A stretch of DNA of 64,000 bases. Origin: Struthio camelus (lineage: Eukaryota; Chordata; Aves; Struthioniformes; Struthionidae). The stretch is from contig NC_090943.1 in assembly GCF_040807025.1 (NCBI RefSeq), positions 23,527,213 to 23,591,212 on the forward strand, read 5' to 3'. Positions 8,830 through 53,806 of the stretch are shown piece after piece. Positions within the stretch are counted from its first letter, which is position 1, and each line of letters opens with the position of its first letter. Both the position numbers and the translations under genes were made by a program. A model generated the notes under the pieces. It saw nothing but the letters and a program-made list of their open reading frames with translations. It had not been told where the DNA came from and did not search any database.

Positions 8830-9560
8830 CTTGGAGCTCGCTTCGCCGCCGCAGGGCAGCGGCGCGGCCGCAGCCTGCTCCTCGCTCGCTAGGTGTCGCT
8901 GCCGCCCTCCGCGCAAGATGGCGCTGCGCGCCCCGGCCGCCATCTGGCGGGTAAGCGGCCGCCGTCGGCCGTGCCGCGCCGACAGCCGGGCTGGCAAATC
9001 CCGTATTTCTGCCTACAGCTGCACTGCTCTCAACGCTGTGATCTGACCCCTGTGACCTGTGCGGCAAGAAAAGATATACCCCCGCCCCAGTGGGTCTAAT
9101 TTGTTCCACAGAGGCCAGGCGCCCTGGAGAGCTGCGGTGGAGGCAGCGGAGGAGGCTTCCCCTGCCCTGGCGGGAGCGGGAGGCCTGGTGGCTGGAGGGG
9201 CTGCACCGGCCTTGCGAGCGAGCGTGGGGGGACAGGGTGGGAGGGGATGCGTGCAAGGGCAGTTTGTGTCATCCAGTCGCCCAGAACTGGGCTGCCAGGT
9301 GGTGGTCCTGGTGACAGGCTGGGTGCAGGGGAATGGCCGGGGAGGGAGTAGATGGCGGCGTACTTTCCGCTTGCGGTCGACGCCGTTTCGGGAGCAGTCG
9401 TGCGGCTGCTGTTGGGGAGCGGGAGGGGAAGGCAGGGGCCTTGCGGGCACCCAGCCAGGGCTACCCCCACGCCACTCCAGCCGCCGCCGCATCGCGCGCA
9501 CCTCACCTGGCCAGCGGCCCATCAGACCGGGCAGCGGTGTTGCTGCTTTGCAAAACAGCC
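8830..9560. promoter_or_regulatory. CpG island, probable bidirectional promoter
   Basis: CpG dinucleotides are dense at 8840-8995 and again at 9345-9510, in strong contrast to the AT-rich surroundings. AAGATGGCG at 8915-8923 (plus) and AGATGGCGG at 8945-8937 (minus) are opposed YY1-type cores, and another ATGGCGGC lies at 9352. Such an arrangement is common at TATA-less promoters. The gene it serves is unknown. In mammals MRC1 is next to SLC39A12 and TMEM236, but I could not recognise exons of either. Confidence 0.75.
8918..8950 (+). CDS. Possible short first coding exon, unidentified gene
   Basis: ATG within the YY1-type motif opens MALRAPAAIWR, directly followed by a consensus donor GTAAGC at 8951. 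The peptide is basic and alanine-rich, like the start of a mitochondrial targeting sequence. No second exon can be assigned with confidence. A possible acceptor TGCCTACAG at 9010-9018 would add 25 codons before a stop. It could also be the 5' end of a non-coding RNA. Confidence 0.3.
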
Positions 9561-9750
9561 AGGCGCAGGGCAACAGGCTGCTGTCCGTTATGTGCATGGG
9601 TTGTGCGTGCCAGGGAGGAGTGGAGGGCAGCAGAGAGATTTTTGGACGCGTCTCCTTGCTTTTGGGGACTGCCAGCTTTGTGAGGCTTGACTTTCGTTGT
9701 CGAGAGCGCCTGTGTGCCCTTCCTCCCCCTTGCAGTAAAGGGGGTGGCCA

Positions 9751-9890
9751 AATCGCAGAATCACAGACTGGTGAGGTTGGAAGGGACTGTGCGGTCCGAC
9801 CCCTGCTCAGGCAGGGTCAACCAGAGGAGGCTGCCCAGGACGGTGCCCTCAAGGATGGAGACCCAACAACCTGCCTGTGCTACCTCTTCT
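9751..9890 (-). mobile_element. Short CR1 3' fragment next to the CpG island
   Basis: TCGCAGAATCACAGACTGGT followed by GAGGTTGGAAGGGAC, and later GGATGGAGACCCAACAACCT, match a CR1 3' end on the minus strand. It is about 140 bp and belongs to a different subfamily from the copy at 7.1 kb. Confidence 0.82.
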
Positions 9891-12800
9891 GGCGTTGAAG
9901 ACACTCACCAAGTGTGGGCTTTTTCACCATGCTGAAGATACACTCCTCGATGGATGACACTTCTAAAGCCACAGGCAAGAGACATGTGAGACAAGCAGCA
10001 CGTGGGCTGGGTGGGAGAGAGACCTTTCCTCCAGGCCTTTGGTGGTTCTGGTGTTCCCCAGGGCAGAAATAACAGCTTGTCAGCCATGGCTGCGCTGCAG
10101 CGAAGCCCTGTCTTCAGTCCCCGAATTATGGAGTACCGGGATGCCAGTGCAGACCTGTCATCTCAATGTCTGCATGCTCTCATAGGAAAAAATGTTTCTC
10201 CATTTTGTAGTTTCTGCAAAAAAAACCCAGATCCTGACTCAGGCAGAGTTCAGAACGACTGAAGGCCGGCAAGTTCTGTTTCTATTAAAGAGGGAAGTTT
10301 CTATCAAATCAGGAAGTTGAACAATTAGCAAACTTTTAAAAAAGGAATTATGAAGTTAGGATTAGCTGGGAACTGCTGAAACCCACTGGAGAAATCTGAT
10401 GTGGAGAAATCTGATGGTCAGTTAGGAAGAAAATCTTGTTTCTTTGTATTTGTGCACTAACAAACATAAAACTGTAATGTTTGTTTGCAGTTCACATAAA
10501 CTTTCTGAGCCATGACTTTTTCATATGTCTTTTTCAAACTTGTATATGGTAGCAAGGTGATCTTGGCAAATAAAATGAGTTTCCTCTAGACAATATTACT
10601 AATGTATGACCAATTAGGTAACTCTAATAACCAGTTTATTCCCATTAACATAATCTTTTGATATGGCATTCATTGATAAATTGTGATGTAACACGTTGAT
10701 CTCATTCTAATGTTTGAATTTGGAACTTAAATACTGAAATCACAACAGAGACAGAAAATGAGGGGATGAAGAGAGAGTGCTTCTTAAAGAGACAACAATT
10801 AACTTACCCATTAGTGGTTCTCGCTACCAGAACTCGCTTCCCAGGAAATGGGGATAGTTAACTGCTAAAAGCTAAATTGGACAATTTTTGGAAGCTGAGA
10901 AATGAGCAGGCAATGTTCCTCTGAAAGTCTTTGAAAAAATAATTGTTGAGGCAAAGTTTATAAAAGTGGCACTGGCTTTCTTTAAGTGGGGAAAATAAAC
11001 GGATTCTCCAATCTACTCGATTTTACTGAAGATTTGGTCTTTTGTCTCGCTCTCCTTATTCAGCTGGATTGATGTAGATAATATCTCCCCAGGACTAAAA
11101 CTGAGTGGCTTCCACGAGACACATTGTATGAGTATCTGGAGGAGGAGGAGAGAAAGAGGACAATTTCCATGTTGGGAAGAGTACCCCTATACTGTGCGAG
11201 TGTCTGCGAGCCAGGTTATCAGAGCTGCTGGAATCTCTGAATAACCAGTGCCAGTCACACAGCAAGAAGTGACCATGCTCAAGAAGTAGTTTGTAGAGCA
11301 CCTTGTGATGCTTGGAACTTATTCATGAGGCACACTGCCTTCAAAAGTCCAATAGAGTTTTGCAAGAATATCCTATATAGGGAATGCATAAAAGACAAAA
11401 TTAAAACACAAGGTTCAGGGGAATAAATGAGATGGGGAGGGGGAAAAAAGGCGGAATGCAACAAGATGCAAAATAAGTTATTTTGAAAGTTATTAACCTA
11501 GTTCAAGTAATTATTAATTTCTAATCACTTTTAACCAGTGGAACGTGGCATTGTTAAATAATACCACACAATTCAGAAATATTTCATGATGTGCATCAGG
11601 ACAGTATTGGGTAAAGTGGCTAAAAGATATAAGATCTTCATATGTAGTGATGACTAAGTGATATTCATGCTTTAACGGTGGCTAAAGCTATGATACTGAA
11701 AACTGAAGTAGGGCTTATATAAATTCAAGTCAGTCCAGACTTAGCTGAACTAAAATTTGAAAAATCCGTAGTAAATATGGATTATCAACTTGCTAATCAA
11801 AAATATTAGTTTTTTATTGTAGCTAAGCATTAAGACCATAAAGGTGGAAAGGAATAGGAAAATATAAGCAATGTGTTCCCAGAGTGACTGCAGACCTTAC
11901 TTGACGTTCCTCTATGTTGTCAGTCTACACAAAAGAGGAGAGGGAACTTTTAGCATGCAGTGCTTGATATTAGGCTGGTCTTTGTATTACATGCAATTTG
12001 TTGTCCTAAGCTGTATGTATCAGTGATGGAGATCGAAGAAGCAGAGCCCTCATTTATGATTCTGGGCAAAACTTTATCAAGGCTTCACTGGTATGCTGTA
12101 CACATCAGCTGCTGTACACATCAGCTACTGCTCAGGGAAACACGGTTGTGCAAATCTTAAATATAGAGATTATATCAGCAGTATAACCCAAAATACTTAA
12201 CTGATTGCCTACCCATCCTGGCCCTGGCCTAGGAAGTGCTCACGAGAGTACATAGGCCGATGGTTCCTTGAAAGGTTATTTTAGACATAGTTTCTTGGCA
12301 GTTAGGGCCAATGATTTGTGCTTTCTTAGGAGTTCCTGGCGATGCTAATATTCTGTTAATAAACGCTACTTGCTCAGTTTCCATTCTCTATTAGTATGGA
12401 AAATCAAGTCAAAGAAATGCTTGAATTTATAATTAGAAGTTCTGTTTCCAAAAGTAATGCTTTTCAAGGAAAAAAAAGATCTTTTGGAACTGGTTTTGGT
12501 GGTTGTTTTGTGAAATAGCCTGGAGCTATTTCATGAATTGGCATTAAATATAATCAACAAAAACCTGTTCAAGTGTGCTATGTCAAATTGCAAAAGATAT
12601 CAATTAAGAATTGTATTCTGAGGGACTCAGCGTTTCTCTCACGTCATGTCTAGATGTGCGGCTTCTCCAACATCTCATTCTTGCAATAATTTTAAAGCAA
12701 CCACACTCACTTTTTAAAAATGCTTCTTTAAAACTCTAACAAAGCAGCTAGTCACTGTATTTGGCAGTACTCACTCAATTTGCATTCATCTTTTTTTCCT

Positions 12801-19053: not shown

Positions 19054-19256
19054 CTACATGTCAGTAAATGCATCTTGTTCTTGGCTATCCACGGCTGCTG
19101 CTGGTCCCTTCATTCTCGTTGAAATATCTAGTTGGTTTTGTTTTTTCTTGAACTTCAGGTAGAAATAAACTGTACTTCCAGCTCCAGCAACAGAAAGGAC
19201 TAGAACAACAAACAGCCAAATGATGATGTTGGAAAATACTTTCTCCTTTTTCTCTC
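19054..19256 (-). CDS. MRC1L: Gene 1 exon 30: membrane helix, cytosolic tail and stop
   Basis: The exon encodes the helix IIIWLFVVLVLSVAGAG and STVYFYL, the stop-transfer KFKKK, and a tail ending EQDAFTDM before TAG at 19056-19054. The tail has no tyrosine beyond the membrane, no FxNxxY motif and no dileucine. It also differs from the EHSVV-ending tail of gene 2. Confidence 0.94.
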
Positions 19257-22200
19257 CTGTAAGTAGATGAAATGGAATCAATACTTTTGATTGTAAGAGA
19301 TTTCAGAATCTAGTAATAAGTGGGATTACTTTGACTAGAATTCATATAAATGCAATATGCATGTAGATTCTCAGTCCAACCAGTTATTTTACTAACAAAA
19401 AATATAATTGTATTAATTTAAAAAAATACAAAATTATAGCTCTTTTCTGTACCTAGATACAAATGAAGTTTATGGACTTTTTATTTTGAAATGCTTTTAG
19501 AATTAATATTTAGAAACTATTTAAGTATGTGCTTGTTATATTTGAGCACCTCCTTAATTCTACTTAAAGGAAGTATGCTTACCTTTATTTCCTGGTAGCA
19601 TCACTGTGTTTTCAGTAGCTTTGAGAAAGAAAATAAAGTGTTTATTTTGAATGCTCTTAAGAGAAATTTCAAAGTTCCTAAGTCCACATGCTCACCTGTT
19701 TGTGATAATTGCATTCCCTGGGAGGTGGAGCTAAGAATGTGTAAGCTTCTAACTTGACCTCCTCAGTTATGTTACCCAACAAGAATTTAGATTACGGTTA
19801 GATTTCTGTATCTTCTAAAAGCCTTTACAAATGTGTTAGTTTTGAGAAACTGCCTGTTGAATCTAATTCACTTTTAGGTGTTTTCTGAAATGGGAAACAT
19901 GTCTTGAATTAAGTTCTCATGTGTACTGGAAATATCTCATAAGCGTCTCTATTCACAGAAATACCAAGCTGAAAAGAATCTTCTGTGAATTTAGCCTTCT
20001 TTTGAAGGCAACCCTTCCTTGTGATTGTGTTTGTGGAATGAACACAATGCTCTGGTAACTGGGGTTCCTAAACTTTTTAAGTAAGGGAAAGGTTAACAGA
20101 AATGCGGAGGAATTAAGCCAGCAAAATGTCCAGTTCAAGTTCTCGACTGCTTTAGTTTAATCTCATTTGGTAATTGAATCTTTGAATTTTCTTTCAGATG
20201 ACCATTTTGCTATCAAGAAAATACTAGAAAGTGCTGTTAAACATGATTCTATCACACTGTAGATAAAGAGTGCCACAAAAATGTATGCAATCATATTTCT
20301 CTGTTCCGTCAGCACAGAGGATAGTAATGAATCACCAACTCCTGCAGACAGAGTTTTCACCGTGCTCATAAGAACAAAATTTTGGGGGGGGTAATACAGT
20401 CAAACTGAAATGAGACAAAACTTGTTGCTTTTAAGCTTAAGTTTTGTGATAGTTGCGGGACAATTCTGGCTTTACTGAAAACCCACTTCTTATGAAAAAT
20501 GAGTGGTCTTTAGCCATTCAGTTTCCTACACATAGGTGATTGAAGTATCCAAGACAGCTGCATGGGGCTCATGGTTATTATACAGGTCTTATGGGGCATG
20601 CAGCCTTCTGAGGAGGTAGTTGGAAGCCACGTGGTATACCCAGCTGCACCTGAAGCCTCAGGATTTAGGTCACTGAATCTTGGTACAGATATATGTGCAA
20701 AAACAATAGACACCTATAATCATTCTTTACAGTATGTGCACACATGCTTTAGAATATATAATTTAGATACATCATGAGGCATTATTAGCCATAACCTCAA
20801 TATATTACAAATATTACTTACTTTTTGGTTTTTTACAGATATATCCTTTTTTGAAAGAACAGACATTGCTGTTCCAGTACCCAGACAACGCACATATTTC
20901 TGCACACTGCTTATTCCTGTTGTTTGAAGGCTCTGCCATGTTCCAGTTGACAAAATCCACTGCAGTCTTGTCTGTCCATACCCACTCCTCTGATGTTTAA
21001 AATAAGCATATATGGATAAAACACAATGTTTTAGGCTGATAGAACATGTGATGGAAAAACAAAAAAGTTACAGCATGAATAGATAATTAAACATTTCAGT
21101 TACAGTTCTAAGCATATGTAAGCATGCCTTGAAATATACTTTATATATTTGATAGGTACGTATACTTTCAAGTATATAAAGATGCTTTCTTTTTAACATA
21201 TCTTACATCATCATTTTGTATCATCTAGTAATATATGATTAAATATTTAAGATATTACCTCTATCGTTTTTCTTCAGTCCTATCCAAAAGTTTGGTGATT
21301 TTCCATGGAGTACCTTAATGCTGTCTGACAGAAAGTTTGTTTCAGCATAGTCTCCTATTGATACCAAGTTAGCAGCTGAAAAGTATTAATGAACACATTG
21401 CAATGTCTCATTCTTTTACGCTTTATGGACAGTTTAAGTCAATAAACACAGAAATTACATATTCTTGCACAGAATATTCACTAGTCTCATTAAGTTTATT
21501 GTATCCTATCCAGCCATTTTGAGCACGGCTGTGACGTGTGTGGATGCAAGTTAGCACGAAGGCATGGATTTTCGGTTAGCCTTTGATATTTTAGAGAAGA
21601 AAAACTGGTCTCCTGCAATACTTTTGGACAGGGCCAACCACAGCACTAAATGTGATGCTGATACGCTGACAGTAATGCATGTGATGTAGTCAGCACCATG
21701 ATCCTGCCATTACAGCTCTGTCATACATCAGACATGGAGTGCTATTAGAATCGTGAATGTGTCCAGAGGCTGTGCTGGGTTCATCAAGAAATAACTTCCT
21801 GGCCTGGCCTAGCTAGAGTGCAGGCAAAAGCTTTGGAATTTGGTATACGGACCGATGTCAAAGTATGATCTTTCATTCTGCTTTTTAGTGTAATGCTTTT
21901 TCTAGTAATTGTGTGATTTATCTTTTTATAGAACTATTTTGTGAATTTTATTGTCACACAATTGTAAAGTAAAATGCCTTTGCAAAGCTACTTTTTCCAT
22001 TTACTCAACCATAGGCCAGCGTCTTAATACGTAAGAGGAAGTATTACTAGAAATCCCTGTATTACCTCTTAACCATACGAGAGTAATTAGTCAGTAATAT
22101 GGTGTTGATGTATAGTATGTTGCTTATTCTTCCTCATTTAAAAATAGTTAGAAGACACTGAAATTACGCTGTATCTCAAGAATTCTTGGTTAGCATTCAA

Positions 22201-25200: not shown

Positions 25201-28200
25201 TCATGCAACTGAAGTAGACATCTCACTGACAAAGGATTTTCCTCCATAAAATTCTAACTTCTGAATGGGGACTATTACACCAATTGCACTTACAAATGAA
25301 AAAAAAAAAATCCATTGGTCAATATGTCCTGGTACCCTATCGTATAGCCTTCAGATTCCTTTAAATAATTTTTGCCATTGTTTCTGTCCCTAACTGTATT
25401 TCTCTGCTGCTACCGTAAATAAGACTACTTAGGGAGGTATGTGTGAACATAAACACACATATAAAATCCGTTCCTTCCCAGATGTCAGATGTGCAAGCGA
25501 AGATATGATGGCACTAATCGTTGGGATACATAAACACATGACAAGAGGGCGGGATGTACTCATGCATGTTGATTTTGGAATATCTTTTAAATTAAAGCAA
25601 ACTCATGAAGTGGGAGATATTGCTTGTTATGTTGGAGACCCTTTAAATGACTTCAAACGGTAAACAGCATTGTGGTACGCTGGTTTGCAGGAGCATTCCC
25701 CTGGGCTACAGCATTTAAGAGCTCTTGATTCATTAAAATCTGCACAATATGGCTCATATTCATTGAACGTTAAATGGGTATAGTACTGACATAAATTGTG
25801 GCTTTCAGCGATACACTGACAGAAATTCTTACAGGTTTCAGGATGAGAGCATGCAGTAAGATTCTTCTAAACAAAGAGTAAGACTGGTCCAGTGTAAGCT
25901 TGACTCTCTGTAATGCATATGTTCTTACCATGTTGCTATTAAGACCAATCCAGAGAGGCTCTCCATATTCTTGTGCGAGTAAGAACAACAGTGACTGGCT
26001 ATATACATCTAAAATGCTGGCAAGTTCTGAGGCTTTGTTATTACAGGATCTTTGTGCTTCTTCCCAATTCATTTTGGAATGGATGACAGAATAACTAACT
26101 CCATCAGAATGGGCAGAAGCAAAATCCAGCAGTGTGGCTGATGACTTAAAGAGTTTAGGATCTGTAGGAATAAGGGAGAAGAAAGAAAACAAGAATAGGT
26201 ATATCTAGAGGACACATATTTCACTTGAGCAACTGAATAACATCTTCATTATTTACAAACCAAGTAGTAAATTGCTAATTTGAGTGGAACACTTCTCGTT
26301 ACATGTTTATGAGTAGCAGATAATTCCAAAAAAGAATGAACCTGCATGAAAGGAATACGTTCTCAGCCTTTGGCAATTTTGAATCAGTGAATTCACAGTA
26401 GTTTTCAAAACAGTCAGTCAAAAACTGCACACCAACTCTGTCTTTTCAAACTATTTTTTGCTGCTTAATATGACTATCAAATTTATTTGGATAAATGTAA
26501 GACTTGCCAATTATGATGATATACAGATCATTATCAACTTATCGAATTAAAAAGTTTGGGGTTTTTAGCTGTTCAATTACAGTATTGGAAAATAAAAATA
26601 TTTGTGTTCCTAAATTCTAGTATTTATCACTCCCTTCTCCAAAACACTGCTAAGCAGTACTGGGATGCAAGATAGGCTGTGGATTTTTTCTAAAGTTTTA
26701 CTTGTCCTTTACCTAAAAAAAAATTGTGAGCAATGATCTAAATAACGTCGAACAAGAGAAGTGTTTTTAATTAATATATTATCAATTTCAAGACTAGCAA
26801 AACAGAACTCACCACTGTTCTTCTGGCATATATACCCTCTGGAGTTGTAACATACTTCATCATTCCATTTTCCTGTATCATCAGCATGACCTTTCTTCAG
26901 AGAAACACAGTCAAACTGATGGAGGAAGGCAAGGAGTATGAATACGTTGATGTTAAAAAACAAAGTACTGTAAACCTGGGACATTTCACTCCTTTTTTCT
27001 TTGAATTCTGATATTGTGGGCTTTGAACTGCTCTAGAAACACATTCTTTGTGGTCTCCTTTGTTGTGGCCAGCTTCTGCTCGGTACTATCTTGTAAATCT
27101 TTTCAATGCTGCTACTGCAGCTCAGCCTGCTTCTTCATTCAATTATATTTTGAGAAAATATACTTGAATACTTGAATATGCTTTCAAGAACATTTTATCA
27201 CACCTTCTGTTTCACTGAATAATGAGCAGCTCCCAGCTAGATTTTGGAATAGGAATGAAATAAAAATGAATGGAAGTCAAGCTTTGTATATGGCCTACAA
27301 AGGGACATTTAAATAGTGGTTATTCTTGACAGAATCAGCTTCAAGATAAATGAACAACTTGGGAAAAGGGTTGAGGCATATTTATGGTAAATTGAACTGC
27401 TTACCCAAAGTGATACTGCTCTCCTGATTTAACCTGATGATACACTATAAGCGATATTTACCTGTTGCCGATTGTGGCCATCTTCTGGATGTAGGCTGGG
27501 AAACAAAATAGGTTCTGCAAGTTTGGGGCAATCTTGAGCCCAGTTTGTATAGGAAACAGCACTTCCATCAGTCCAAACAAAGTTGAGTTCACTGAGTATA
27601 TCATTCAAGCCAATCCAGGGATCACTTGACACATCCTTCAAATGGTAAGTGAGAAAAGCTGGTAAAAGGCAATAGAAAGGAAGTTGAACATGTCATCACT
27701 CAAGACATCAGCATATAAACAAATCCTTAAGTATTTTGTTTTTCTAAAGTCTTGTAAATGCATTTTAATTCGTATTTGATTGGAATTGTACCCAATTTGA
27801 TTATGGCAAACCAAGGTTCCAAGCCTTGGCCTGTGAAAAGTCTCAAAGAGTGGAAGTGTTTGTAACTATGAAGCAAGACTAGTTCAGAAAGAGGTAGGAT
27901 AAAATACCTGCATGACCATCATGTTATCTACTGAGTTCACTTATTTCAATCCTTGGAATGAGCTGATTGACTGATGGAAGCTACACAAGTAGCTACCTTT
28001 AGCTGCAGGTGGAACCCTAGGAACGTAGTCAAGGTGAAAATGTGTCTTCATGTGACATTGCTACAGAGGAATTAATTTGCAGAATTAGGGCAATCATTTC
28101 AGAGAGGGATAGTATTAGATCCATTTCTTTTTCTGACAGGAGCAGGCCATGACTTCCTTTGCCTTCTCTGTATCAAAAACTACAAACATCAGGTCTGGAT

Positions 28201-31200
28201 TTGTTATTCTATGCTGATAATTCATATCCTACAAATCAGTAAAGCGGTTTGTGTGGAGCAGGAGGGAGCAACCCTTAGCATCACTAGCATGCTTGAGGCA
28301 GCTGGTTTTAATTCTTCCAAAAAAGCTTTATGCCATGGCCTTATAACCCATGTGAGTATAGCTATTATAAAATATATATATATTTACAACTACCTCTTTT
28401 TACCATGTTCTTTTTTGTAGGAAATGATCACTGTGTACAGAATAAATACTGTCCAAGACCTAAAGAGCTGTTATACTATACCTTGTACTTGTCCATCATG
28501 TATGCTAGCCAGGTTTCCTCCAAGGCTCATACAAGCTCTATGTGCAGTTCTCCAATATACATAGGCAGAGCCAAAAATCTTGTAACACTGGGGGAGAATG
28601 AGTTGGACTGTTAATAAGTGATAGCAAAAGGAATGTAGGTTTGAATTACACTAATTTTAATAGAAATTAGTGCAATTGCGATCCAGAAGAAAAATTCGTA
28701 AAGTTAACAAGGACTCAGCACTAATATTCCAAGTCTGATATCAAAGTCCTGCTCTGATACTCTGTTTGCAGATTTTAAATTTACTCTGTATCTTTCGCCA
28801 AGTAGCAGAATATCCCAGCAAAACTCTAACAACCATTTATAAATCACAGTAGGAGTTGTAGAAGAATCTTGTGTGTCAGCCAGCTCAGAGTTTTGGATAA
28901 ACCATACTTCATCATTGATAAAAGACAAAGAAGTGTTGTTTCCTCAAAACAAAACAAAGCAAAACAAAACAAAAACTACACAAAAGCCAGCACAGCATTC
29001 CACATGGGATCATCTGAGCTTTGTGAAAAGCAATATTTTTGACCTGTAGCCTGTGATCAGTGAGCTGTTGTGTGTTTAATCAGCCTTTCTCATTTTGTAG
29101 CTCTTTTATTAATGGAAGTATATGACTAATGCACTCTTAAAAAAATACCTAGTTACCATACTACCAGTAGACATTCACCCTGAAATGGTCCTGGTAATTA
29201 TGAATGTGCCAAAAGTGCCCTCGCTATGCTTCCAGTGCACCTTCTGCTCTGTGGCATACCAGTAGCAGAGAATAAGACTTGTGGAGCTTGTTGGAAATAA
29301 CTCTGACAACTGTAACAATTACAAAAAGGTGAACTGGCATAAATTCCACCGTTGTATCAGTGGGTGCTTCCATAACAATTTTTTATATATTATAAAAGAG
29401 AACTCTGACTTAATATGCACATCAGAGTTTGCCTCTTTGGAGATGAGGGAAGCATTAAATTGAAACTTTTTTAGAAAGATCAGGCATTATTCTTGGTTTG
29501 TTCCAGCTCAAATGACTGACTGTACACTTACATACACTCTAAGAGTGTATGTAAGAGCTTTTTAAGTAGATATATGCTATGTAACAATTTTGTCAATGTG
29601 TCTCAGATGGCTACTTTTCAGGAAAACAAAAATCTGTAACTACAAAATCATCATTTTGCAACAGTTAGGTAACTGGTCCAATTTTTAGTGCAACTTCGGA
29701 TAATCACTGTCAAAAGGTAACTAAGAGATAAAAGACCTCTTTATTGCTTTACATACCTTCCCAAAGACTCATATTGTGCTTAAATGCATGTTATCATACC
29801 TGATTTTTGAATAAAAGCCAATCTTTAGGACATCCTCCTGGAGGTGGAGGTACCATTGGAGCAAGTGTTGCATTTATAAAACTCCTGCGCCTCTCACAGA
29901 TAAAGCCATTTGAAAAACCACAGTGGATATCATTCCACAAGCCTGAAATCAATTTAAATGTAGATAAGAAGACACTGAATAAGACTGAAGTTTGTGAGAA
30001 AATGAACTGACTTCTATGCCTGTAGCTTCTCAAGCACTCTGTCTGGGAATGTTAGCATGAGTGATGGCATGCTTCAGCTCAACTGTCCATCCCATCTTCA
30101 CTGCTTATAGACAAACCTTGAACCTGCAGCAACTGTGCAAGTAGTGGCTATATTAGGCAGAAGCCATATGATATGCCTGATACGGCAGTTCCCTAACCTC
30201 CATGCAAAACCCACAAACATCTTTCTTACACTCAAGAGTGCAAGTGTAAAGTAACAATTTATCAGCGGAAACACAATTAAATGTGAAACTAGGTCCTTAG
30301 GTATACTTTCTATTCCTTGGCTAGCTATCCTCTCATCTATTTTTGAAAGACCAATTTGCCATTGATTTGAAGGAAACTTACTGTTTGTACAGCTGAAAAG
30401 TTATTGCTCCAGTCTTCTGCTGTATTACCCATGAAAGTTATAATTTCTTATATTCTACTTCCATGACCAATATTGCCCGTGAACTAACCTCAGATATAAT
30501 GACTAAACTTTATTATGGGACTTTTTCACAAAATCCCTGGGAAAGAATGGATTAAGGTAGGCAAGTCACGTTAACAAATGGAGGAAGAAAGATACCCCTA
30601 AAAATACTCTTTTAAAAATGTTTTGTAACTCACCATCTTTTTTATTTAAGACCACGCAGTTTTCTTCAGCAGCTGCAAAGTTGGGCTCATCTGGTGCCCA
30701 AGCTGCATAGTGAACTGGGCTTCCATCTGCCCAACTGAAAAAACAAAGGCAACACAGTAGCTGTTGGTCAGATAACGTTCATGAAACAGTTGAGAAAAAT
30801 CTATTTTAACCTAACAATCATTTGCTAATAATCTTACCATCCCAAAATAAAATATTTACAGCTGAGTGTGTCTGACTGTAAATTGGATTTCTGCTGGGAT
30901 TAAAATGTCTTAGATAATAAAATCCCAGCATGTCAAGTCAAAGAACAAAAATATTGTTATTTTTAAGAGTTGTTATCTATGTATTCATAGCATGTATATG
31001 ATCTATTTTAAAAGCCTTTGAAATATAGTGATTTTACAATGCAGATAAACCAAGGGAGAGCACACATTTCAACATGCAATATAACTCTCTGAAACTGCTT
31101 TTAACTCCCTTGCAGTGGTCCCTCCAGAAATAACTCTAGCTGTACAAAACTTCTGCACTGAATGCTAGGAATTTTGATGTAACTTTTGTTTACCAACCTA

Positions 31201-34200
31201 AACTGTTGATCAACATCCTGAAGTAATCCGATGAGGTATGATTCCAGTTTGCCACTTTTTAAGATCTACACACAAAAATACACTTTCAGTTAGTGCTTGC
31301 TTTTACATTACAGTTATCTGATATGAAAAAAATGTATTTTTGTGCGATTAAATCAAATAGACAAATACATATTGTATAAATGTTCATGTGTAGCCACCAG
31401 AGAGGACTGCCAATGAAATAAGTACTGTATATTGCATACTTTTGCTTCATTATCTTTACTGCTGCTTCCCTAGTTTGACTGCATTAACAGTGTGATGAAA
31501 GTTTTTAGAGTTGGATCCTGTTCTCACTTTTAAAAGACACAAGGAAGACTTGAGGAAGAATTTAGTATAAATATGTTGGTACTTAGGAGTAAATACATCT
31601 AAATTTTCTTCTTCAGCAGCTGTGCAGTTCCAGTGTCCCAAGCTGTCTGTCCTCTGCTCCTTTCATATCCTTTCCCATACATAATGAACACAATCATCTA
31701 ATAGTGTGATGAGGAATGGAGGGTCTGTGGCTACTTCAGTCTTAGTGAACTGAACCGGGTTAGGGCAGAGGCGGGAGCACTGAGCAGCAAACAGCCCTGC
31801 TCATAAATTGTCCGCACGCTGCCTGCGGTGGCTTTGGCGTGTCCCAGCAATCACCACCACGCGTAGGCAGTGCCCGGGGTGTACATTAGCAGGTTTGATA
31901 CGTGTTACAGCACAGCGAATTCACCAAGGTCCCGATTCTTTAATCCCTGACCTGTCCTGGGCTTGTGCTAAACCTGCCTTTGCAAAGCTGTATTGTTCGG
32001 CAGCGTGATACAGTATGTGACCCTCAGAGCTATACTGGCAGTAGCCTCAAATCTGCGCATATCACTGCACTTCAGACCAGTCAGATAAGCTAGGGGTAAC
32101 CATCCTGGAAAAAAGGATAATTTTCTCAGTGTACATTTAATCTACCTGTTTGTTGCTCCTTACATAACTTTCGTCTTGGGGAAAGCTCTCTTTAGATTAG
32201 AATATAAAAAATATACCCACTCTAGTAAAGGATACATTCTTTTGTATTTATTTTCCTAAACAGAAGGCCTATTCTGAAGTATAAACATTTTTTCGCTGAA
32301 CGTTTAAATCTACTGCCGATAAAATGTAGTAACAATATTATGCGACAAGCTTGTTCTCCTGCAGTTCACCAGCATATGCAGCAGAGCATACACACAGCAG
32401 AGTATGCACACCATATATAGTGAAACACATAGTTAAATTTCCTCTTACGTATTTCCACAAAAATTTTCTTTCATTATTATTTCCAATAGTAACAAGGTCT
32501 CCATAATTGTTTTTGCAGAACTTTCTGGCTTTTTCCATAGAGGTACTTTCTGTGCTGAAAAAATATTGTTTGTTCCCGTTTATAACCCAGCCATCTTCAG
32601 TGACTTCATACACTGCAACATAGAAAAGGAATTATTCTGCACAGTTCTTATGTGGTGCTGGTCGTGTTACATGATATTACTCTTTAGATAAGAGGATATA
32701 AACAAAAAACTTACTGGCAGAAGGGCTTGCAGGTTCTGATTTCAAGGGTGCTCCTGTAATGAAATGGACAAAAAATGAAGATGTAAAATGCTTCCTGAAC
32801 GTTCACCCAGTGTAAGTGCTCAGTTAGTGAAAATGAATTTGGTATCAAACCATTTTCCATGTTTTACACATTCAGCGAAGAATGTATTTATTCAATACTG
32901 TTGGTGCAGAGAAGGAGTGTATGTTCAGGGAATAACAGATGTATTACAGCTCTACATCTCTGCATCAGTAGATTTTTTGGTGAGTGCATCTTGTACATCC
33001 TGAAAGTTGCCTAAGTTTGGCGAATGCAGTTAGTTTGAATGAGTATTTGTTTCTGAGAGAAAATAGAAGATTGAAAATATGTTACTTGAATGTTAGCATA
33101 CTTGCTCTGCACGGTAATAAGGTTCTTTATAGATGTGATCTTGTAGCTGAGCAAGAAATTCAAATGAAAAAAATCAAAAATAAATCTACTTCAAAGTATT
33201 TTGAATTTTATTGGTATACATTTGTTGGCAAAATAAATTTTTTCTAAGAAACTACTTAGTGAAAAACCACATTTGACTGAAAACCTGCTGTCTACTGAGA
33301 CATAATTTAAATGAAAAATTCAGACATCATCTTACACAGAGAATGATTCTAAGATGCTGGTAGTCTTGTTTGAATTAAACTAGGTAACTAATTTGTCTTT
33401 GTTTTTAGCTTCCTTGCTCCATCTGAGTGGAGGATAGAAGTTTCATTTCACACAGGATATTGAGATTTCAAGGAATCTTTTTTGTAAATTGAAACCCTTG
33501 CTTTCTCCCTCAGCCCTCCATTTCAGAAATTCCCTAGAAGTAGTAGTTCCAAGAAAAATGCAGTTTCATGTCAGCAAAAGCTGCTGTTTTGACAAAATCT
33601 TCTTTTGGGCAGAGCAATCTGGGATTTTACCAGATGAGCCCTTGAGGTGGCTTTCTCCTTATTTGCTATGATTCCATAATTATATAAGCATGTATATTTT
33701 CAGTATAACATCAAATAATAGAAAATTTTAAATATGCATAAACCAAAATTTTTTAATTAACAGTTGAAGCGCTGTATTCTGAAAGTATTGCTATGTTTTG
33801 ACTCATTTTTCCTTATGCAAAATTCCTGTGAAATCAATCAAATTTTCTTGGTTGGGGAACTTCCTAATTTGGTAGAGCATGACTCAAATTTCTCAGACTA
33901 CATTTACTGCGAGCTCGGAAAAAAAGTAGCCTACCTTTCTTTATTTCACAAATCCAGTCATGACTGTATTCACAGTGCATGTTAATCCATGCCATGGATG
34001 ACTCTTCATTGATTGTTCCACAATACTCAAATCCAATATTGTCAAAATAACTTGTTTCCCTGTAATTCACCTACAGTAGAAACTAGCGTTGATTTTTGTT
34101 CTTAACTTACAAGGAAAGGAGTTTCCAGTCATGGAAACAGCTCCAACAATGGAAAAGTCAGGAAAAAATTGGGAGGGTCTAACACTCACCGGTGATCCAT

Positions 34201-37200
34201 CACTCCAGGAAAGCCCACCGTCAGGATCCAAACAGTGTAAACCTATCCAGAAAGGCCGAAATGATGGGGATTTGTTTCTAGAATGTGAAAAAACGTATCA
34301 TGGAAGAAGAGGATGTGTACAGTTAGCCGCATCACATTTGACAAGTTCTATAGGAAAATAAACCTTACATTTACTAGAGGTCCAAAGGAATATTCAAACT
34401 TCTGAACAAATAATATAAATGTATTGTATACAGCTGCAAGGACTGGTAGATAAATACCTGCTCTGTAATGATGAAGTAAGTATAAATGTATCTGAAGATT
34501 CAAAGACTCAACTGCTGAATTCCCAAAAGGTAATTGCGGTAGAAATTTTAAAAAGGACAAAATACTGTTGGCCAGCTAACTCTCACTAGTAAATAAGCTA
34601 AGTGATCACACCTTAAAACTTTCCACTTTGCAAATTGTTGTATTGAAAACACAGCATATTGTTTTTCTTCACCGATGCTGTGATTATTATGTTCTTTGAA
34701 AAGAAAATGTTCAAGTGTACTAGAAGCGACAGTTTTGTTTCAAAATGGCTCAGTGAATGAACTTAGAAATGGGTCTAAAGCAGGAGAATTCACCCAATTT
34801 CTTTCTTTTTTTTTTTAGTTTTAAAGGTTTGTGGATAAAGACCAATTTTAGGAATTCCAAATAAGTGTTTGGAAATTGGTACCCACATGAAGTTATTTTT
34901 CCAATTCTTTTATTTACGACAATGACTATAAACAGAAATAGATTTAAAATAAATTAATTATCTCAGGAAAGAATCAAGAATATTTTTTAGTATTCCTATA
35001 TAATGTATCGTTACACTAAAGCATCAATTATTTGATGTTTACTTACATTATTAAATTTTCTATCAGTCTTTGCTCTTCTTCATTTTTAATGGCAGCCAGA
35101 TCTCCTCCTATTTCTCTGCAAAAATCTCGGGCTTCAAACCATGTTTTCTTTTGGTTTCCTTCTCTCACAAAAATCTATAGATAAATTTTATAGTAGATCA
35201 CTGTTTACATTGTAAATATTAAAAATAAAACTGACTGCCTTCTATAAGCAATATAGGAAAATAGTAAATTATAAATAAGCATATATAATGTGGATTAAAG
35301 AATATGATACTTAGTTAATCTTACATATCACTGATACAGTAATAATTGAAGTGATTTCCATTAATAGTCTGTATAAAAGCTTACTACATTTGTACTATAA
35401 TGTGCCATTCTCTGAAATTTAGACTTTCTATCCATTTAATATTCCTCTGTCTCATGAGCAGGCTTGTTGAAAAAATTAATACTTACTTTGAAGCATGAAT
35501 TAGTGCTATTGTCTGTATTCCAACCCAAAGGACATTTGGAATCCGAAATTGTTTCAGGAGCAAGAGGAAGACTCATTTTTTCAGCTAGTTTTTTGCAGAG
35601 AAATTTTGCCTTCACTTTGCAGTTCTGAACATCCCATAGTCCAGCTGTGCTTCCAGTCCTCAGGACGACGCAACCTCTTCTCTTCCCTTTGTGAGATATA
35701 AAACAAAATTAAAATGTGTTTGTAAGTGGTTCCCCTGCTGTCTTTACAGCTCGTGTGATTCTTTTCTAAAAGACTGTTGGAAATAGAAAATGTAATGTCT
35801 GCTCAAGGAAAGAGCTTCTTAAAGAGAGGAAATAGGTGAGCAGAGTCCTTCATTATCTTCACTCCCCCCTTGTAAAGGTTTAAACCTCCAGTGCATAAGC
35901 AATGTGCTGCCTCCCTCTTTCCTATGCCACGCTCTGCAAGGGTTTTGCGGCACATCGCCTAGAAGTGATCTGAATTTTTGAGCTTCTGAAACCCCCTCAC
36001 CATGACTTGGTTCATTCCCTGCTGTCAAAACCTAAGTTACAGTATTACTTATAGAGACTCTTAATTTCTAAGGTGGAGCCTTCTCAGTTCGCTTCAGCCA
36101 CCTCATCGTTAAGCTTATGATGAACCTAACTGTTGAATTCCCTCCCCGTATAGTCCCCAAATGTGCATGTTCAGAGAATTGATCACATATCTTTTTTTCT
36201 GATCACACAATAGGTGGATCTGACTGCTACCACAGAGTAGACACTTTTAGACGGTTTAAGTTTAATACAATGAATCCCAACCTAAGAGTTTAAGGATATG
36301 CATAAACTCAGATGAAGCACAACACATCAATTTCTGAGCAAGAATCAAAGGAGTTGTACCAAAAGTAGTGTAGCTGTGCCAGCACCATGCTGAAATTAAA
36401 AAATCAGCCTGAGCGTAGCATCACATATACACTGCACTCTACTTTCAAAACCTAAGCATTTTAGCTCGGCATGATGCTGCATTATGCTTCCAATGGCTCG
36501 CTGGGAGCCAATTCGGGTACTTCCAGCATGTCATCTACATGTCCTCAGTTATCCAGCAACAAATACAGGTTGGAATAATGTGGATGAATAAGTATCGTCT
36601 TGGAAGAAATCAGGTGAGGTTACACTGGAATAGCAGAAACGTGTTTACAATCTGAGGCTGAAAAGCTTGTAGAGTCAAAAAACACTTTTCAGGTGGTTTT
36701 CCACGTGTTTTCTTTCAATTCTGTCCTTTTCACTATGTCCCCTCTGTTTGATTTTGCTCTTATTAGTAGTTTGAAAGCAGGAGTCAGAAAAGAAGTATGT
36801 TCGTGGCACCATATATCAAAGATACTCCGAGTTAACATTTCAAAGGCAGAATGTCCATGTGTGTCATTATGGATGTGTTTCAGTACTGGTAGTGGGGAAA
36901 CAGCTTGGAATTACAGCACAGAAAATTCCTTAATACCATAAATCGTTTCAAAAGAGCAAAAACCCTACTAGGACCTTACATGGTGGCTCAATTATAGAAC
37001 TGCAGCGAACAGTTCAAAACAGTGTTTTTCTTTGCAGCAGTGAAAAATTGATATAAAATTCTACCCCATCAGAACCAGAATATTTAATGTTCACTTGCCA
37101 GTGGAGTGAATGGTTATACAGGGGAAAATACTGATGACAGTGTGTTCTGGTGGCCTGTAATTCTTGCTCTTCAATAGCGGCAGAGTGTTTAAGACAGAAT

Positions 37201-43200: not shown

Positions 43201-46200
43201 TTCTCTTGCCCTCAGCTGCTTGATCAGCATGTACATAGGGGCCAGCTATGTGTCCATTAAGGACGTATGCTGCTCACAACCAGTCATGGCACAACCGATG
43301 TTTTTGCCCAATCAATATATGCTGGACTTGAGTCCAGACATTGAAGGGGTGCCTGGTAGAGATACGGGACAGAGGGCTCTAAGGAATCAAAGGTAACAGC
43401 TTCACAGCTCATGAGAATCTTGTTTTATACATTACTTCCAGTTAGGACCCATTTGGGCTAATAGGACAACTTAATAATGAACTTCCAGCTCTCATTTGCG
43501 TTTATGAAATCAGAGGATAATGTATCTGGGCAGGAATGCAGTACCACAACATCTTTTCTTAATATGATTTGTATTCAGACAAGGAATTTTACAGCCATGT
43601 GAAGAGAGAAGAGAGTTCTTTCTTTAGAAGAAAAATCATCAGCTGCTAATCATAAAAAGAGGTTTCAAAAACTGCAAAACTTTGAATTCTAGCTCTGCAT
43701 TTTAGAGCTAAACGAGGCTTAGTGAACAAGCATCATTTGTTAAAAATAGGAGACAAAAGGGAAATGTCACTAATCTTTGGGTACGTTGTCTAACAGTTAG
43801 GTAGGAAATGATGGGAATTCAGGCTGGTCAAAGCCTGTCGAGGTCAGCTTGCTCTTTATGGGAGCATACTAAAAGGCTTCTAGTTTCTAGAGCTCTGTTT
43901 ATTAGATTGCAAAAATAATTAAATGGAATTCTTTAAATATAAGGCAAATCCGCTGGAAGATAGAAGGCAAATCACAACGTGCAAAAACAAATCACCACCT
44001 TTCTGCTGTGCAATTGCCGGGTAGCTCTTTCTCTTCTATGTCACATTCTGGTCCAGCAGCTTTCAGCGGCTTGCTGGAACGAAATAACTCTACTTGGGAT
44101 CTTCAGAAACTACTTCAGATAGGATATAGGTTTATCTAACTCACTGAAGAAAAGCTTAGCTTTTTCACCTCATACCAGCAGTGTGTCTCATAGGAACCCC
44201 GTTTCCATATGTTTATGGCAAATACTGCAGTTCTGTAATTAACATTCAACATTCTGGCAGGAAAGAGTCATCTGTAAAACTGTTAAAAAAATGGTTACTA
44301 CCTGGAGCCCAGCTTAAGTATCTGAAAGGAAAGCCACCGCTCCATTGCCAGCCGCTGTTGAGATTCAAACTGTTAAGCCCAATCCAGAGAGAGGATCTCT
44401 TGCTGTCAATCAAATCTAGGTAATCAAAAGAATTTAAACTTTATGATGTTTATGATAAAATGTTCTACATTTTCAAAGTTTGCAGAAGGTAAATGAATGT
44501 CTGCTTAGGGACTTCCAAATTTCAGCACAGAATCCATATTTACTAATAATAAACTCAGAGAGTTCATTCTGTAGTTGGAGGGTACAGAACGGCAAAAGAT
44601 TAGTTTGCATATTAGTTTATCCCAGTGTAATGCTATTTTACAGTTGTATGTAAGTAATAGGCATTGAAAACTGAAACAATGAATTGCTTTTGTTAATATC
44701 TGTATTACAGGTTAGCTGTAAGTTTGATGCAATTAATACAGTGGCTTCATTCTACAGAGCCTTTCCATATGTACGCAAAGTCTTAAATCTTGTATAAAAT
44801 TTGTATGATATCTGAAAAAAAATCTGTCTATTGCGTGAGTTCTGCATAACGGACACTGATTTCTTAATAGAAAAGTGAAGTACTGAACAGTAGGCAATTA
44901 TAATGGCTTTTTTTTTTTTGGTAAGGTCCCTTTCTAAGACTGATGTGTTAATGTTTTTTGCACCTGATCCAACTTTTGCTTGATTAGCTGGAAATTCTTC
45001 ACTGGCTTTCTGAAAATAATAATCACAATTTCAAATGATAATTCCACAACTCACTTACAAAAGCTTAATTTACAGTACTTGTGACATTTCTCTAGCAGTA
45101 CAAATATTATTGTTACATAAGCTATTTACTGTCATATGATTAAAGCACTGAAATGTTTGTAAGCAGTCAAAAAAGTGCAGTCTTTACTGAGTCTCATTTG
45201 CTAGTTCACCTCTCAGATACATTTGTTCATGTATCTCTGTGACGCTTAATAATTCTGCATTCTGCTGCTGGCAGCTCTTCCTTGCTTGGTGCCATGTGAG
45301 AGCTGCCTGGAAGTTTGTCTGGTAGCAGGTTCCTGTCAAAGGATCTGTAGTCCAAAATCTGCCATTGCCACTGTCTGCGTGAGGGAAGGGAGATGCAATA
45401 TTGCAGTCCGTTATAAACAACTTAGGCAAAATGTTATGATAGAGTTTAACTAAAAGCTTATTCGTGAAATCACGTTGTTCTGGAGCAAAAAAGCCCCAGC
45501 CCTACCCCAAATTTTCCCTTTGTGTGCTCTTTGTTAAGTCAAAGAGGGATTTCCACTGGCATTAACAAAGGTGGGCTTTCATCCTTTATTTTGTTTCCCC
45601 TATCAAATCTGATAATTTTCAGATGAAAAAAATAGCACAAAGAGATCAATAAACAAAATGGCACCTCAGTCATCATCTACTTTGAAATCCTGTTCATCAG
45701 CTCAAAGGCCTTATCTGAATGGGTTTTTAGTCACTGGCGCTTAGAAATTGTCTTCTGGGAATTCTCTGTTAGCAAAACCATTTCCTGGGCATGTGCTTAT
45801 AAGCTGTGATTATGATTTCCCTTAACTTTGTCTTTCGTTAAGGGAAAGAAATAGGATTCCTTAAACCGTTCATTAAAAGAGGTATTTTCCAGGGTTTTTC
45901 TTTTGTTCCTTTGTTGCTGGCTCCCTTCAAATTTTTAACATTCTTTTTTATTTGTAGACCCAGTGAGCCTAGTGGTAGTGTCCCAGCAGTTATATAATGC
46001 CAGATATTTCTGATTTTCCTGTTTACATAACAAGGGATTTTATTAAAACTATTGTATGCATTATTGCACCAGGAAATGATTTTCAGCAGTGTCAGTTGAA
46101 AAGACACTGATGGCAAATTGGATAGTGAACTGTACTTGGTTTTCTAGAGTTGTGCTCTTCCGAAAACAACAAATGTGATTCTATGGCACATCACTGAAAA

Positions 46201-49200
46201 ATTAGATCTGAGATAGCTTTTTCATTATCTTCAGTCACACCAGACTTTGGTGTCCTTCATTCTGCCCTCAGGTGCACATACATTTATCTGGTGGCTTTCA
46301 GTACAGCGTGAAGCAGGATGATGGAAAGCCATATGCTCTTTGGGAAACATTACAAGGGAAAGGCTAATTATACCGCTATTCCAGTAAGACCTTTGAGCCA
46401 ATCTTCTCCTTCTTTTATCCCTTTCAGAAGACAAACTATATTCTCCCGCAGGGTATAGGCCAGTTTTGTGATCTAGAACAGGGATTTGCATAGGTAGAAA
46501 AGGATACACAACTCTTACCAGAAATAGCAATGAGGCAGGGAGATTAGAGTAGCATCTTGCTTTTCAGATGACTTTATGCTGACTGCAGTCACATTTAAAG
46601 TCTAGTGGCCTTTTCCTGGCTGTGACCTTCTGATGGACAACCCAGGCAACTTTTAGTTTGACTGGAGACTCAATAGGGGAAACTTTTTTTGTTTCCTATG
46701 TAAGGAATATTATGGCTTGGTAAAGACACATTTTTGTGTAAAAAAAATCATTGCAAGGGCTTTCCCTGCTAATACTAGCAGCAGCATCTCAATATTGATG
46801 TATTAATCGAACAATATTTTGTTAGAGCATCTATAGCAGCATTCAGGACTTACTGTCAGATGGACAGAGCCCATACATATGGTCTGAGTCGAAGTCAGGG
46901 GTTGTTGCACACCAGAGCAAGCCATCCGACCTGCCAGCGTTTGTGCACTCCGCGTACCATTTACCACTCAGCTTGAAAGGGAAGGTGCACGGCGCTCCAT
47001 TGGCATTTCCTAGCAGTGTAAACAGATCTGAGGGGACAAAACAGAAATGCGAACACAGACACAGGAGTGTGGGAGACCCAATTGTCTACATATTTGTACA
47101 CTCCTTAGAAGTAACTGGAGAAAATGTTACATTCATGGTAACTGGTGACCCACTGTCACTAGCAGAGTTATCCAAGGAAATTCAAGGTAAATCTTGTAAT
47201 TTACCGTTTCCATATGGTATCACCAGCTATAGCAGCTAGAAATAGAGCAATTTTATGTAATAGTCAAGAATTAGAAGAAAAGTGTAGTGTTTTTCGCCTC
47301 GTATGTTTAGAAATAGTTTTCTCTAAATAGCACTATTTTGTTCTTCCCGTGGCTTAACTTTCAGTCATTCATGAAAAAGATCATTGATTTAATTTTTAAA
47401 TGCTTTTTTTTTTTTTTGCATCTGAGTTCTCATAGAGGAACTGAATGGCCTTGTTCTTGGAATTACTTCCTTACATTTGGGGCTATGGGGCATTAAAGTT
47501 GAAGGCTGTTGCCTTTCATCCAACAATGATAATACAATTATACTTGCACATATTCATCAGCTAAATAGGCTAAAGCACTTAGCTTAAAGGTAACGATTAA
47601 AAATAGCCTAGATCTGCCTTTGTTTCAAAGGAAAATGTAAGAATTGCGATTTTTTTTCAACATACTACATTCTCTCTGAAGCAAAGCACCTTTGTATCTT
47701 CAGGATGGAGGAATGAAGGCCTGAGTATATGAACTAACCATCCTCCAACCCACCATTGGGTCAAGGGGAACAGCTGAAGTTAGACTAAGGGAAACAGAAA
47801 TCAAAGGGCCCCAGCCATGATGGCAAACGAGTACAAGAGACTACCAAGATTAATCTTCGGACTTTACCTTCATGGCCTTCAGAACACAAGTCACCCATGG
47901 TTTCATAGATCTTCCATTTATTCATTGTTCCTGATTCTGTGTCCAGCACAATATTGTCTTCTTTTCTTTTGCCAGCACTGAGAAACAAATCTTCCCCTGG
48001 GATTGCCAAGGTCGCATTTCTGCAGTCCCATTTTTGGAACTCGCTTTTCTTGTTGCAAGGGTATAAAGAAATTTTGGCCTGGTCTTGCTTAGAGGGCACT
48101 CCCAAACATTGCGCAAATGCCACACTCATCACCTGGTGATCAGATACCCACTTGAATTTTTGTAACACACTGTTTTTTTGGCAAGCAGCTGTTGTGACTG
48201 CATGAGAACTCTTAGCAATTATACAGTGCTTACTGTCCTCATTGTATATTAAAAAGATTTCATTGCCTGTAAAACAAAATAGTCAGAATTAATGTACTAA
48301 TGCTGAAAAAAATGGTGGAGGGGGGCTTGTAAGCAGAGAGATGTGTTGCGTTGCTGATCTTTATACTCGTATCAGGAGACTATAGGTCTGAATGACTTTC
48401 ACAAGGAGCAGACTGCATTTTCAAGAGTTTTATTTCCTTCTGGAAAGGAAAAATCGGTGTGGCTATTATAAATACAATTCAGAAGATAATAGCACACAAA
48501 ATATATTACGATATAGTTTCAAAAAATGTCATCAGGATAATGGAATTTTCATAAATATCATGGATTTTCTTTTTCCAAATCCCTCCTGAAATATATATTT
48601 CTTCTAAGAAAGTTTTCAAAAGACTGCACTGAATATTCAAAATTTAACATTACTTTATACACTACATTTTGCTTGTCTTATATATGTCTCCACTGGATTG
48701 CACGTGAGCTTAAAACAAGTAATGAGTGAGCCTTCTCCTTCAGAAGACCCTTTCTCCTTCAGTACTTGTCATGTTCTGTTATTTATTTTTTAAGACGAAA
48801 AACTATTAAACAATAAGTTGTTATCATGCCCTGTTCCGGTATCTTCTCATTAGTGCATCTTTCAAAAGGAGTGAGTATAATTTATATAATCAAACCCCAA
48901 ACAAATTCTCACAAGAACCAACATCAGGGAACATTTGGGGGTAAAAGTATTATTGGTAAGTCTCTGTATGCCAGTGTCTTCCTAAGGAAAAAGAGATATG
49001 CTAATGCTAAACAAGCTAACTAACACATCTAAAGTTTTATAGACAGCTTAATATAGCACTCAAAAGAAGACAAGTCAGTCCTGCTGAGAAGGATTGCACA
49101 TTAATGCAGCTTTACTCCTGCTGGTGTGTAAAGCTGTTCGTTCAGTGCTGGGCATTGGTCTATGAACAGAACTGCCTGCTTTTCAAAATGTTGAATAATG

Positions 49201-53561: not shown

Positions 53562-53806
53562 TTAGACAACACTGTGTTCACTTTTTCCTTTGTCGTGGGT
53601 AGAATCACTTTTATCGCCCACTCCAGTTAGAGCATTGCTGTATTCTAGCAGTGTGCTGCACTGCCTCACCTCTCTCTGAGTTTCACTTTGTTTTTTGATC
53701 TTGAATAGGAAATAAACCATGAAGCTCATTCCTACTAAAATAAAGAGGACCAGAGCAAGTAGCATCCAAATTGTGCTGTGACCATGTGGCTTGTCCTCTT
53801 TGGCAT
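53562..53806 (-). CDS. MRC1L: Gene 2 last exon: membrane helix, tail and stop
   Basis: The exon encodes [13 protein letters not shown], a helix through [20 protein letters not shown], the stop-transfer KIKK, then a tail with [12 protein letters not shown] and the end KSEHSVV before TAA. The tail is 13 residues longer than that of gene 1 and has one tyrosine, but no FxNxxY motif. Confidence 0.93.

Follow-up and report, generated by a model that had tools for sequence, protein, structure and literature searches.

An intact MRC1-like bird gene, probably MRC1L-E, whose CTLD4 has by sequence lost its mannose and calcium site

Birds carry several copies of the mannose receptor, compared with one in mammals, and the discussion of an earlier description of these copies asks whether they have suitable carbohydrate-binding activities (PMC4229073). 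The stretch of Struthio camelus DNA analysed here, 64,000 nucleotides in all and referred to below as the window, contains an MRC1-like gene whose CTLD4 had been described from the letters alone as stripped of its sugar-binding residues. We therefore asked whether the CTLD4 site is really gone, whether the gene around it is intact, and what kind of receptor would remain. We consider it probable, at roughly 0.7, that we are dealing with an intact bird copy of MRC1, in all likelihood MRC1L-E, in which the Ca2+ site of CTLD4 was lost after duplication and the domain now has a structural or protein-contact role. Two of the alternatives weighed below, in which CTLD5 carries the lectin function or the receptor has turned to protein recognition, overlap with this reading as sub-versions of it, and our confidences consequently do not sum to one.

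Gene structure and position in the MRC1L array

The gene model was assembled by hand from 27 internal coding exons, followed by a likely signal-peptide exon and a last exon, giving 29 modelled coding exons compared with the 30 exons stated for MRC1L genes (PMC4229073). All 29 exons are open over 1429 codons and GT-AG dinucleotides flank 28/28 introns; given that splice sites were picked as GT-AG and in phase, such agreement is partly by construction, and the evidence for the model lies in the fact that an open solution could be obtained for each domain. The predicted product comprises a signal peptide, a CysR domain, a single FNII domain, CTLD1-8, one transmembrane segment and a short tail of 33 aa, which is the layout of the mannose receptor (group VI C-type lectin) family, and Pfam returned CysR, fn2 and eight Lectin_C stretches on the same protein. 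Across the 29 modelled exons we found no stops, frameshifts or broken splice sites that would mark a pseudogene. The features on which the argument draws are as follows, with positions in the window.

19054 to 50761, minus strand: the whole MRC1-like (mannose receptor family) gene, 29 modelled coding exons, 1429 aa; supported by GT-AG in-phase splice sites, a single terminal stop and Pfam
50701 to 50761, minus strand: exon 1, which by hydrophobicity, phase and donor (tgg/GTGAGT) is predicted to carry the start codon and a signal peptide (MTFSTFLVFLFFIHTAFQTL)
47868 to 48266, minus strand: exon 2, CysR (R-type lectin) domain, by alignment to MRC1
46854 to 47027, minus strand: exon 3, fibronectin type II domain
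35487 to 35686, minus strand: exon 12, end of CTLD3, linker and N-terminal disulfide loop of CTLD4
35047 to 35174, minus strand: exon 13, CTLD4 (IFVREGNQKKTWFEARDFC...)
34190 to 34277, minus strand: exon 14, CTLD4 (WIGL...WSDGSP), with an extra cysteine (WIGLHC)
34071 to 34189, minus strand: intron 14, 119 nt
33935 to 34070, minus strand: exon 15, last part of CTLD4, with the EPN loop shortened and lost and WND changed to WIN
32449 to 32612, minus strand: exon 17, first part of CTLD5
31198 to 31265, minus strand: exon 18, CTLD5 (YLIGLLQDVDQQF)
30634 to 30734, minus strand: exon 19, CTLD5 loop DEPNFAAAEENC, Ca2+ ligands kept
29800 to 29942, minus strand: exon 20, CTLD5 WNDIHC, Ca2+ ligands kept, and start of CTLD6
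19054 to 19256, minus strand: exon 29, transmembrane segment and tail, in which no A/B-type endocytosis motif was seen by eye
53562 to 63490, minus strand: 3' end of an upstream paralogue, with CTLD7, CTLD8, a transmembrane segment and a 46-aa tail ending in EHSVV

A competing ATG for the first exon, at 50046, has a higher hydrophobicity score and poorer donors. For CTLD5, a candidate exon built on a WIGL-like stretch near 30.4 kb was rejected, the true exon being 31198-31265.

Five tandem MRC1L genes have been described in chicken, turkey, zebra finch and painted turtle, among which D lacks the CysR and FNII domains, the tail of C is very short, endocytosis motifs are retained in A and B, and small gaps separate C from D and D from E (PMC4229073); four additional chicken paralogues have been named MRC3-MRC6 (PMC12032555). 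The present gene encodes both CysR and FNII, which chicken D lacks, and its 33-residue tail, KFKKKQNQLDISTRMKGPAAAVDSQEQDAFTDM, is not very short as in C and by eye contains neither a PhixNxxY nor a (DE)xxxLZ motif of the kind found in A and B. Exon 29 (19054-19256, minus strand) also encodes a YFYL stretch where the tail meets the membrane. The upstream paralogue runs in the same direction, and its stop codon is separated from the predicted ATG by 2800 bases, a distance like the small C-D-E gaps. Furthermore, the 19 kb downstream of the gene yielded no MRC1L exons apart from one chance-level match (E = 0.30). Because the gene combines CysR and FNII with a tail without A/B motifs, a 2800-base upstream gap and no further MRC1L exon downstream, these observations point to MRC1L-E, which the gene resembles in its CysR-FNII-8 CTLD-TM layout, one-direction tandem arrangement, short upstream gap and tail. 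We infer that it is most likely the avian MRC1L-E orthologue, which closes the sauropsid MRC1L array. Three points speak against this assignment: the EHSVV end of the upstream tail presumably resembles an MRC1-type tail, on which basis the neighbour may be a B-like gene and not D; 29 coding exons were modelled where 30 are stated; and SLC39A12, beside which MRC1L-E is expected to lie, gave no match in the window with a provisional human query. The flanking gene STAM, searched in the same way, gave chance-level matches only. The array, together with a CR1-like reverse-transcriptase frame described below, supports a bird origin of the window.

Residues of the CTLD4 calcium site

The last part of CTLD4 is encoded by exon 15, and the interval 33935-34070 and the peptide quoted for it in the sequence-only reading proved exact. 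The exon is 136 nt long, with acceptor tactgtag, donor gtaggc, incoming phase 0 and outgoing phase 1, and its open frame, immediately preceded by an in-frame TAG, reads VNYRETSYFDNIGFEYCGTINEESSMAWINMHCEYSHDWICEIKK. Among PDB chains, the best single-domain match to this CTLD4 was that of human MRC1 (CD206; 1egg, also represented by 7jub), with a domain score of 136 bits, compared with 63 bits for the top single domain of the other chains with a printed alignment (HMMER). The two domains have six cysteines in common; the human domain differs in having an EPN loop three residues longer, a complete Ca2+ site and no seventh cysteine.

Alignment of the ostrich segment, VNYRETSYFDNIGFEYC...MAWINMHC, with its human counterpart, VSYENWAYGEPNNYQNVEYC...MSWNDINC, localised the change to both halves of the site. 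The loop that had been called shorter at EPN carries a 3-residue gap relative to human MRC1 CTLD4 (HMMER, 1egg), and in this alignment human Glu725, Pro726 and Asn727 face D, N and I; the position of the gap differs among three alignments, and EPN is absent in 3/3. Measured from the V of [ST]PV to the Cys, the loop spans 16 residues, compared with 19 in human MRC1. In the second half, Asp748, the fifth Ca2+ ligand of MRC1 CTLD4, is replaced by N, as had been noted, and Asn747 by I, so that WND reads WIN. By sequence, the mannose and calcium site is thus gone in both halves, in agreement with the original claim, and only Glu733 is kept among the five Ca2+ ligands that make up the EPN, WND and Glu733 signature of a sugar-binding CRD. 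A further 11/11 site residues are changed or deleted (Leu694, Asn728, Tyr729, Gln730, Asn731, Glu737, Lys739, Ile749, Asn750, His753 and Asn755). Previous work indicates that Glu725 and Asn727 determine mannose-type sugar specificity, that Glu733 and Asn747 are Ca2+ ligands, and that alanine at Asn728 or Glu737 lowers Ca2+ affinity about tenfold (PMC7949135). The cis-proline keeps the Ca2+ loop in place, and it is through WND that Ca2+ is coupled to the core (PMC7618208). With four of the five ligands missing, this CTLD4 is very unlikely to bind mannose in a Ca2+-dependent manner. Weak metal binding could conceivably persist through the Asp and Asn left in the shortened loop together with the retained Glu733.

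To what extent the losses are concentrated at the site can be judged from identity to human MRC1 CTLD4, which is 1/16 at binding-site positions vs 60/122 at other aligned positions (Fisher P = 0.0009, a value that overstates the case and serves as a guide only, because loops vary faster than cores anyway). A better control is provided by the same protein: EPN...E...WND is still present in CTLD5, and each of the seven remaining CTLDs retains the loop proline when compared with human MRC1 (provisional human letters for CTLD5-8). Over its whole length, CTLD4 has 60 identical residues among 131 aligned (45.8%), the lowest identity to human of the eight CTLDs but near CTLD7 (47.1%) and CTLD6 (47.8%), two values that rest on the provisional human letters used in this domain-by-domain comparison; CTLD1-3 are 59-67% identical. 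The similar overall divergence of CTLD6 and CTLD7 counts to some degree against a change special to CTLD4.

The scaffold of the domain is retained. The disulfide cysteines and reading frame, previously described as intact, are so: all six cysteines of human CTLD4 are present and the frame of exon 15 is open. A seventh cysteine, at residue 717 (WIGLHC), is additional to the human six and had been overlooked; being odd in number, it is probably unpaired. CTLD4 also contains two N-glycosylation sequons, N652 and N703, the latter of which (NKSP) is followed by Pro and may be poorly used or unused; in the mammalian receptor, CTLD4 and CTLD5 are both free of N-glycan sites (PMC9672410).

One cysteine more than in human MRC1 was likewise counted in each of CTLD1, CTLD4, CTLD6 and CTLD8 (5/4, 7/6, 7/6 and 7/6, respectively; human CTLD6 and CTLD8 letters provisional), and these additional cysteines may be unpaired. 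The exons that encode them are listed here.

45210 to 45374, minus strand: extra cysteine in CTLD1
34190 to 34277, minus strand: extra cysteine in CTLD4
27462 to 27658, minus strand: extra cysteine in CTLD6
20822 to 20989, minus strand: extra cysteine in CTLD8

The original reading would have fallen had an alternative exon in the intron at 34.07-34.19 kb restored EPN, and a search for one found none. A scan of both strands of 32753-35046 (introns 13-15 with exons 14-15) for codons resembling EPN/QPD or WND revealed no EPN-restoring exon; its four matches were the WSD of exon 14, the WIN of exon 15, an out-of-frame WNN inside exon 15 and a plus-strand QPS, and the coding strand of this interval held no EPN-like codons and no WND. 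When the whole window was searched with the human stretch by tblastn, the top hit was exon 15 (E = 2.5e-9), other CTLD exons came next, and the remainder were at chance level. Extension of exon 14 to an internal GTAAGT of intron 14 was considered and rejected, as it shifts the frame and leaves an intron of about 40 nt, which is too short.

Sugar-site residues in CTLD5 and CysR

In addition to the altered CTLD4, the protein contains a CTLD5 in which all five Ca2+ ligands are present: DEPNFAAAEENC...WND supplies E, N, E, N and D in exact spacing, and CTLD5 is the sole domain among the eight CTLDs with both EPN and WND. Since CTLD5 keeps these ligands, it cannot be concluded that sugar binding has been lost altogether. 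The proposal that sugar binding was lost in a maintained protein therefore holds for the maintenance of the gene and for the CTLD4 site, which is gone by sequence, but does not extend to the protein as a whole. In mammalian MRC1, single-unit sugar binding is a property of CTLD4 only, and CTLD4 and CTLD5 together bind mannose as well as all eight CTLDs (PMC9672410, PMC7949135). Because only CTLD4 binds sugar alone in mammals, the CTLD5 encoded here may give weak, partial or no sugar binding.

These residues bear directly on the strongest alternative, that CTLD5 carries the lectin function and the product is still a mannose-family lectin of altered affinity or geometry, much as Endo180 uses CTLD2. 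The exact spacing of the CTLD5 ligands argues for it, as does the precedent that sugar is bound through CTL2 in Endo180 and through CTL4 in the mannose receptor (PMC4635314). Endo180/MRC2 indeed resembles the present gene in that its CTLD4 is not the sugar-binding CTLD and its CysR has Ser155 in place of Trp117 (PMC4635314), but differs in that its sugar site lies in CTLD2, the full site here being, by residues, in CTLD5. The restriction of single-unit binding to CTLD4 in mammals, and an A at the position of Tyr729 in CTLD5, weigh on the other side. We regard a CTLD5-based lectin as a tentative possibility, of somewhat less than even standing; the intact CTLD5 site, which allows that the protein may still be a lectin, is at the same time a point against our main reading.

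The entire CysR domain can be aligned with that of MRC1 (1dqg), with Trp117 replaced by M and both Asn102 and Gln104, which we take to be site residues, replaced by K. The Trp117 change had gone unremarked. In MRC1, Trp117 stacks on the sulfated sugar, 4-SO4-GalNAc, and Endo180, with Ser at this position, does not bind sulfated sugars in the account of PMC4635314. The sulfated-GalNAc site of CysR has thus probably been lost too.

Proposed origin and present role of the altered receptor

In the scenario we favour, duplication from a mannose receptor would have been followed by loss of the principal Ca2+ site of CTLD4 through in-frame shortening of the loop and substitutions. CTLD4 would now be a disulfide-stabilised structural or protein-contact domain instead of a receptor for mannose, fucose or GlcNAc, any leftover Ca2+-dependent sugar binding would have to come from CTLD5, and the R-type site for sulfated GalNAc would probably be lost as well. 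We infer such a role by analogy with the CTLD4 counterparts of PLA2R and the IgY receptor, which may have one, and with NKG2D, a CTLD without a Ca2+ site that has such a role (PMC7618208). A further point against this scenario is that chicken HD11 cells are reported to have yielded no intact MRC1L-E transcript (PMC4229073); the same source gives intact frames for Line 0 cDNA.

A second alternative holds that the receptor has come to recognise proteins, in the manner of its relatives PLA2R, DEC-205 and the avian IgY receptor, and that this is why the classical lectin sites in CTLD4 and CysR were both erased. Consistent with this, loss of the CTLD4 site and the W117M change in CysR occur together in one intact gene, the tail lacks A/B endocytosis motifs, and CTLD4 carries an extra cysteine as well as the sequons N652 and N703, the mammalian domains being free of N-glycan sites (PMC9672410). 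The CTLD4 loop is also about as short as in PLA2R (7qsr) and the avian yolk-sac IgY receptor (9wyt), where it has 17 residues vs 16 here and 19 in MRC1 and where, in the printed alignments, there is neither EPN nor WND, as in the present gene. PLA2R, the IgY receptor and DEC-205 (7jpu) nevertheless form separate branches, and the gene is much closer to MRC1, CTLD1-3 scoring 596 bits to MRC1 and <=469 bits to the other three. The CTLD5 site is intact, variation at these positions is common among CTLDs that are not known to have gained a function, and one of the two sequons, with Pro next to it, may be unused. We judge a switch to protein recognition unlikely, although it retains some weight. 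Slightly less probable still is a specific form of it, in which a paralogue kept in birds, lacking both MRC1 sugar sites and the standard endocytosis motifs and bearing CTLD4 sequons and an odd cysteine, would be a protein receptor re-purposed from within a lectin array, perhaps a disulfide-linked dimer, and the shortening of the CTLD4 loop would parallel that in PLA2R and the IgY receptor.

Decay of the gene, with the CTLD4 change as the onset of function loss, would fit the clustering of changes at a functional site and the report that a chicken cell line yielded no intact MRC1L-E transcript (PMC4229073). It is difficult to reconcile with 29 modelled exons free of stops, frameshifts and broken splice sites, with the retention of the structural cysteines and WIGL, and with the 59-67% identity of CTLD1-3 to human MRC1; moreover, coding sequences of all five MRC1L genes are described as intact in three birds and a turtle, and the Line 0 chicken cDNA frames are intact (PMC4229073). 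We consider decay very improbable. An assembly or annotation artefact, in which exon 15 is wrong or chimeric, would draw on the fact that a single assembly underlies the exon and is scarcely credible given that exon 15 fits the frame and splice phase, that the best single-domain match is MRC1 CTLD4 and that introns 13-15 hold no other candidate exon.

A CTLD4 without a sugar site is known elsewhere in the family, which has itself been published together with the array and the sequences from chicken; a literature search of limited full-text coverage turned up no account of an avian MRC1L gene whose CTLD4 site is missing. A copy whose CTLD4 site is gone by sequence, beside an intact CTLD5 site, makes the question raised in PMC4229073 directly testable by binding. 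It also advises caution, in that a bird "mannose receptor" transcript need not mean a mannose-binding receptor.

Two further features of the window lie outside the gene. The stretch 8001-10000, in which no gene was identified, is rich in G+C (54.9% vs 38.6% and 38.5% in the adjoining 2-kb windows) and is possibly a promoter island. At 58561-58989 on the plus strand, an open frame resembles a reverse transcriptase, which we take to be of the CR1 type, as in bird genomes.
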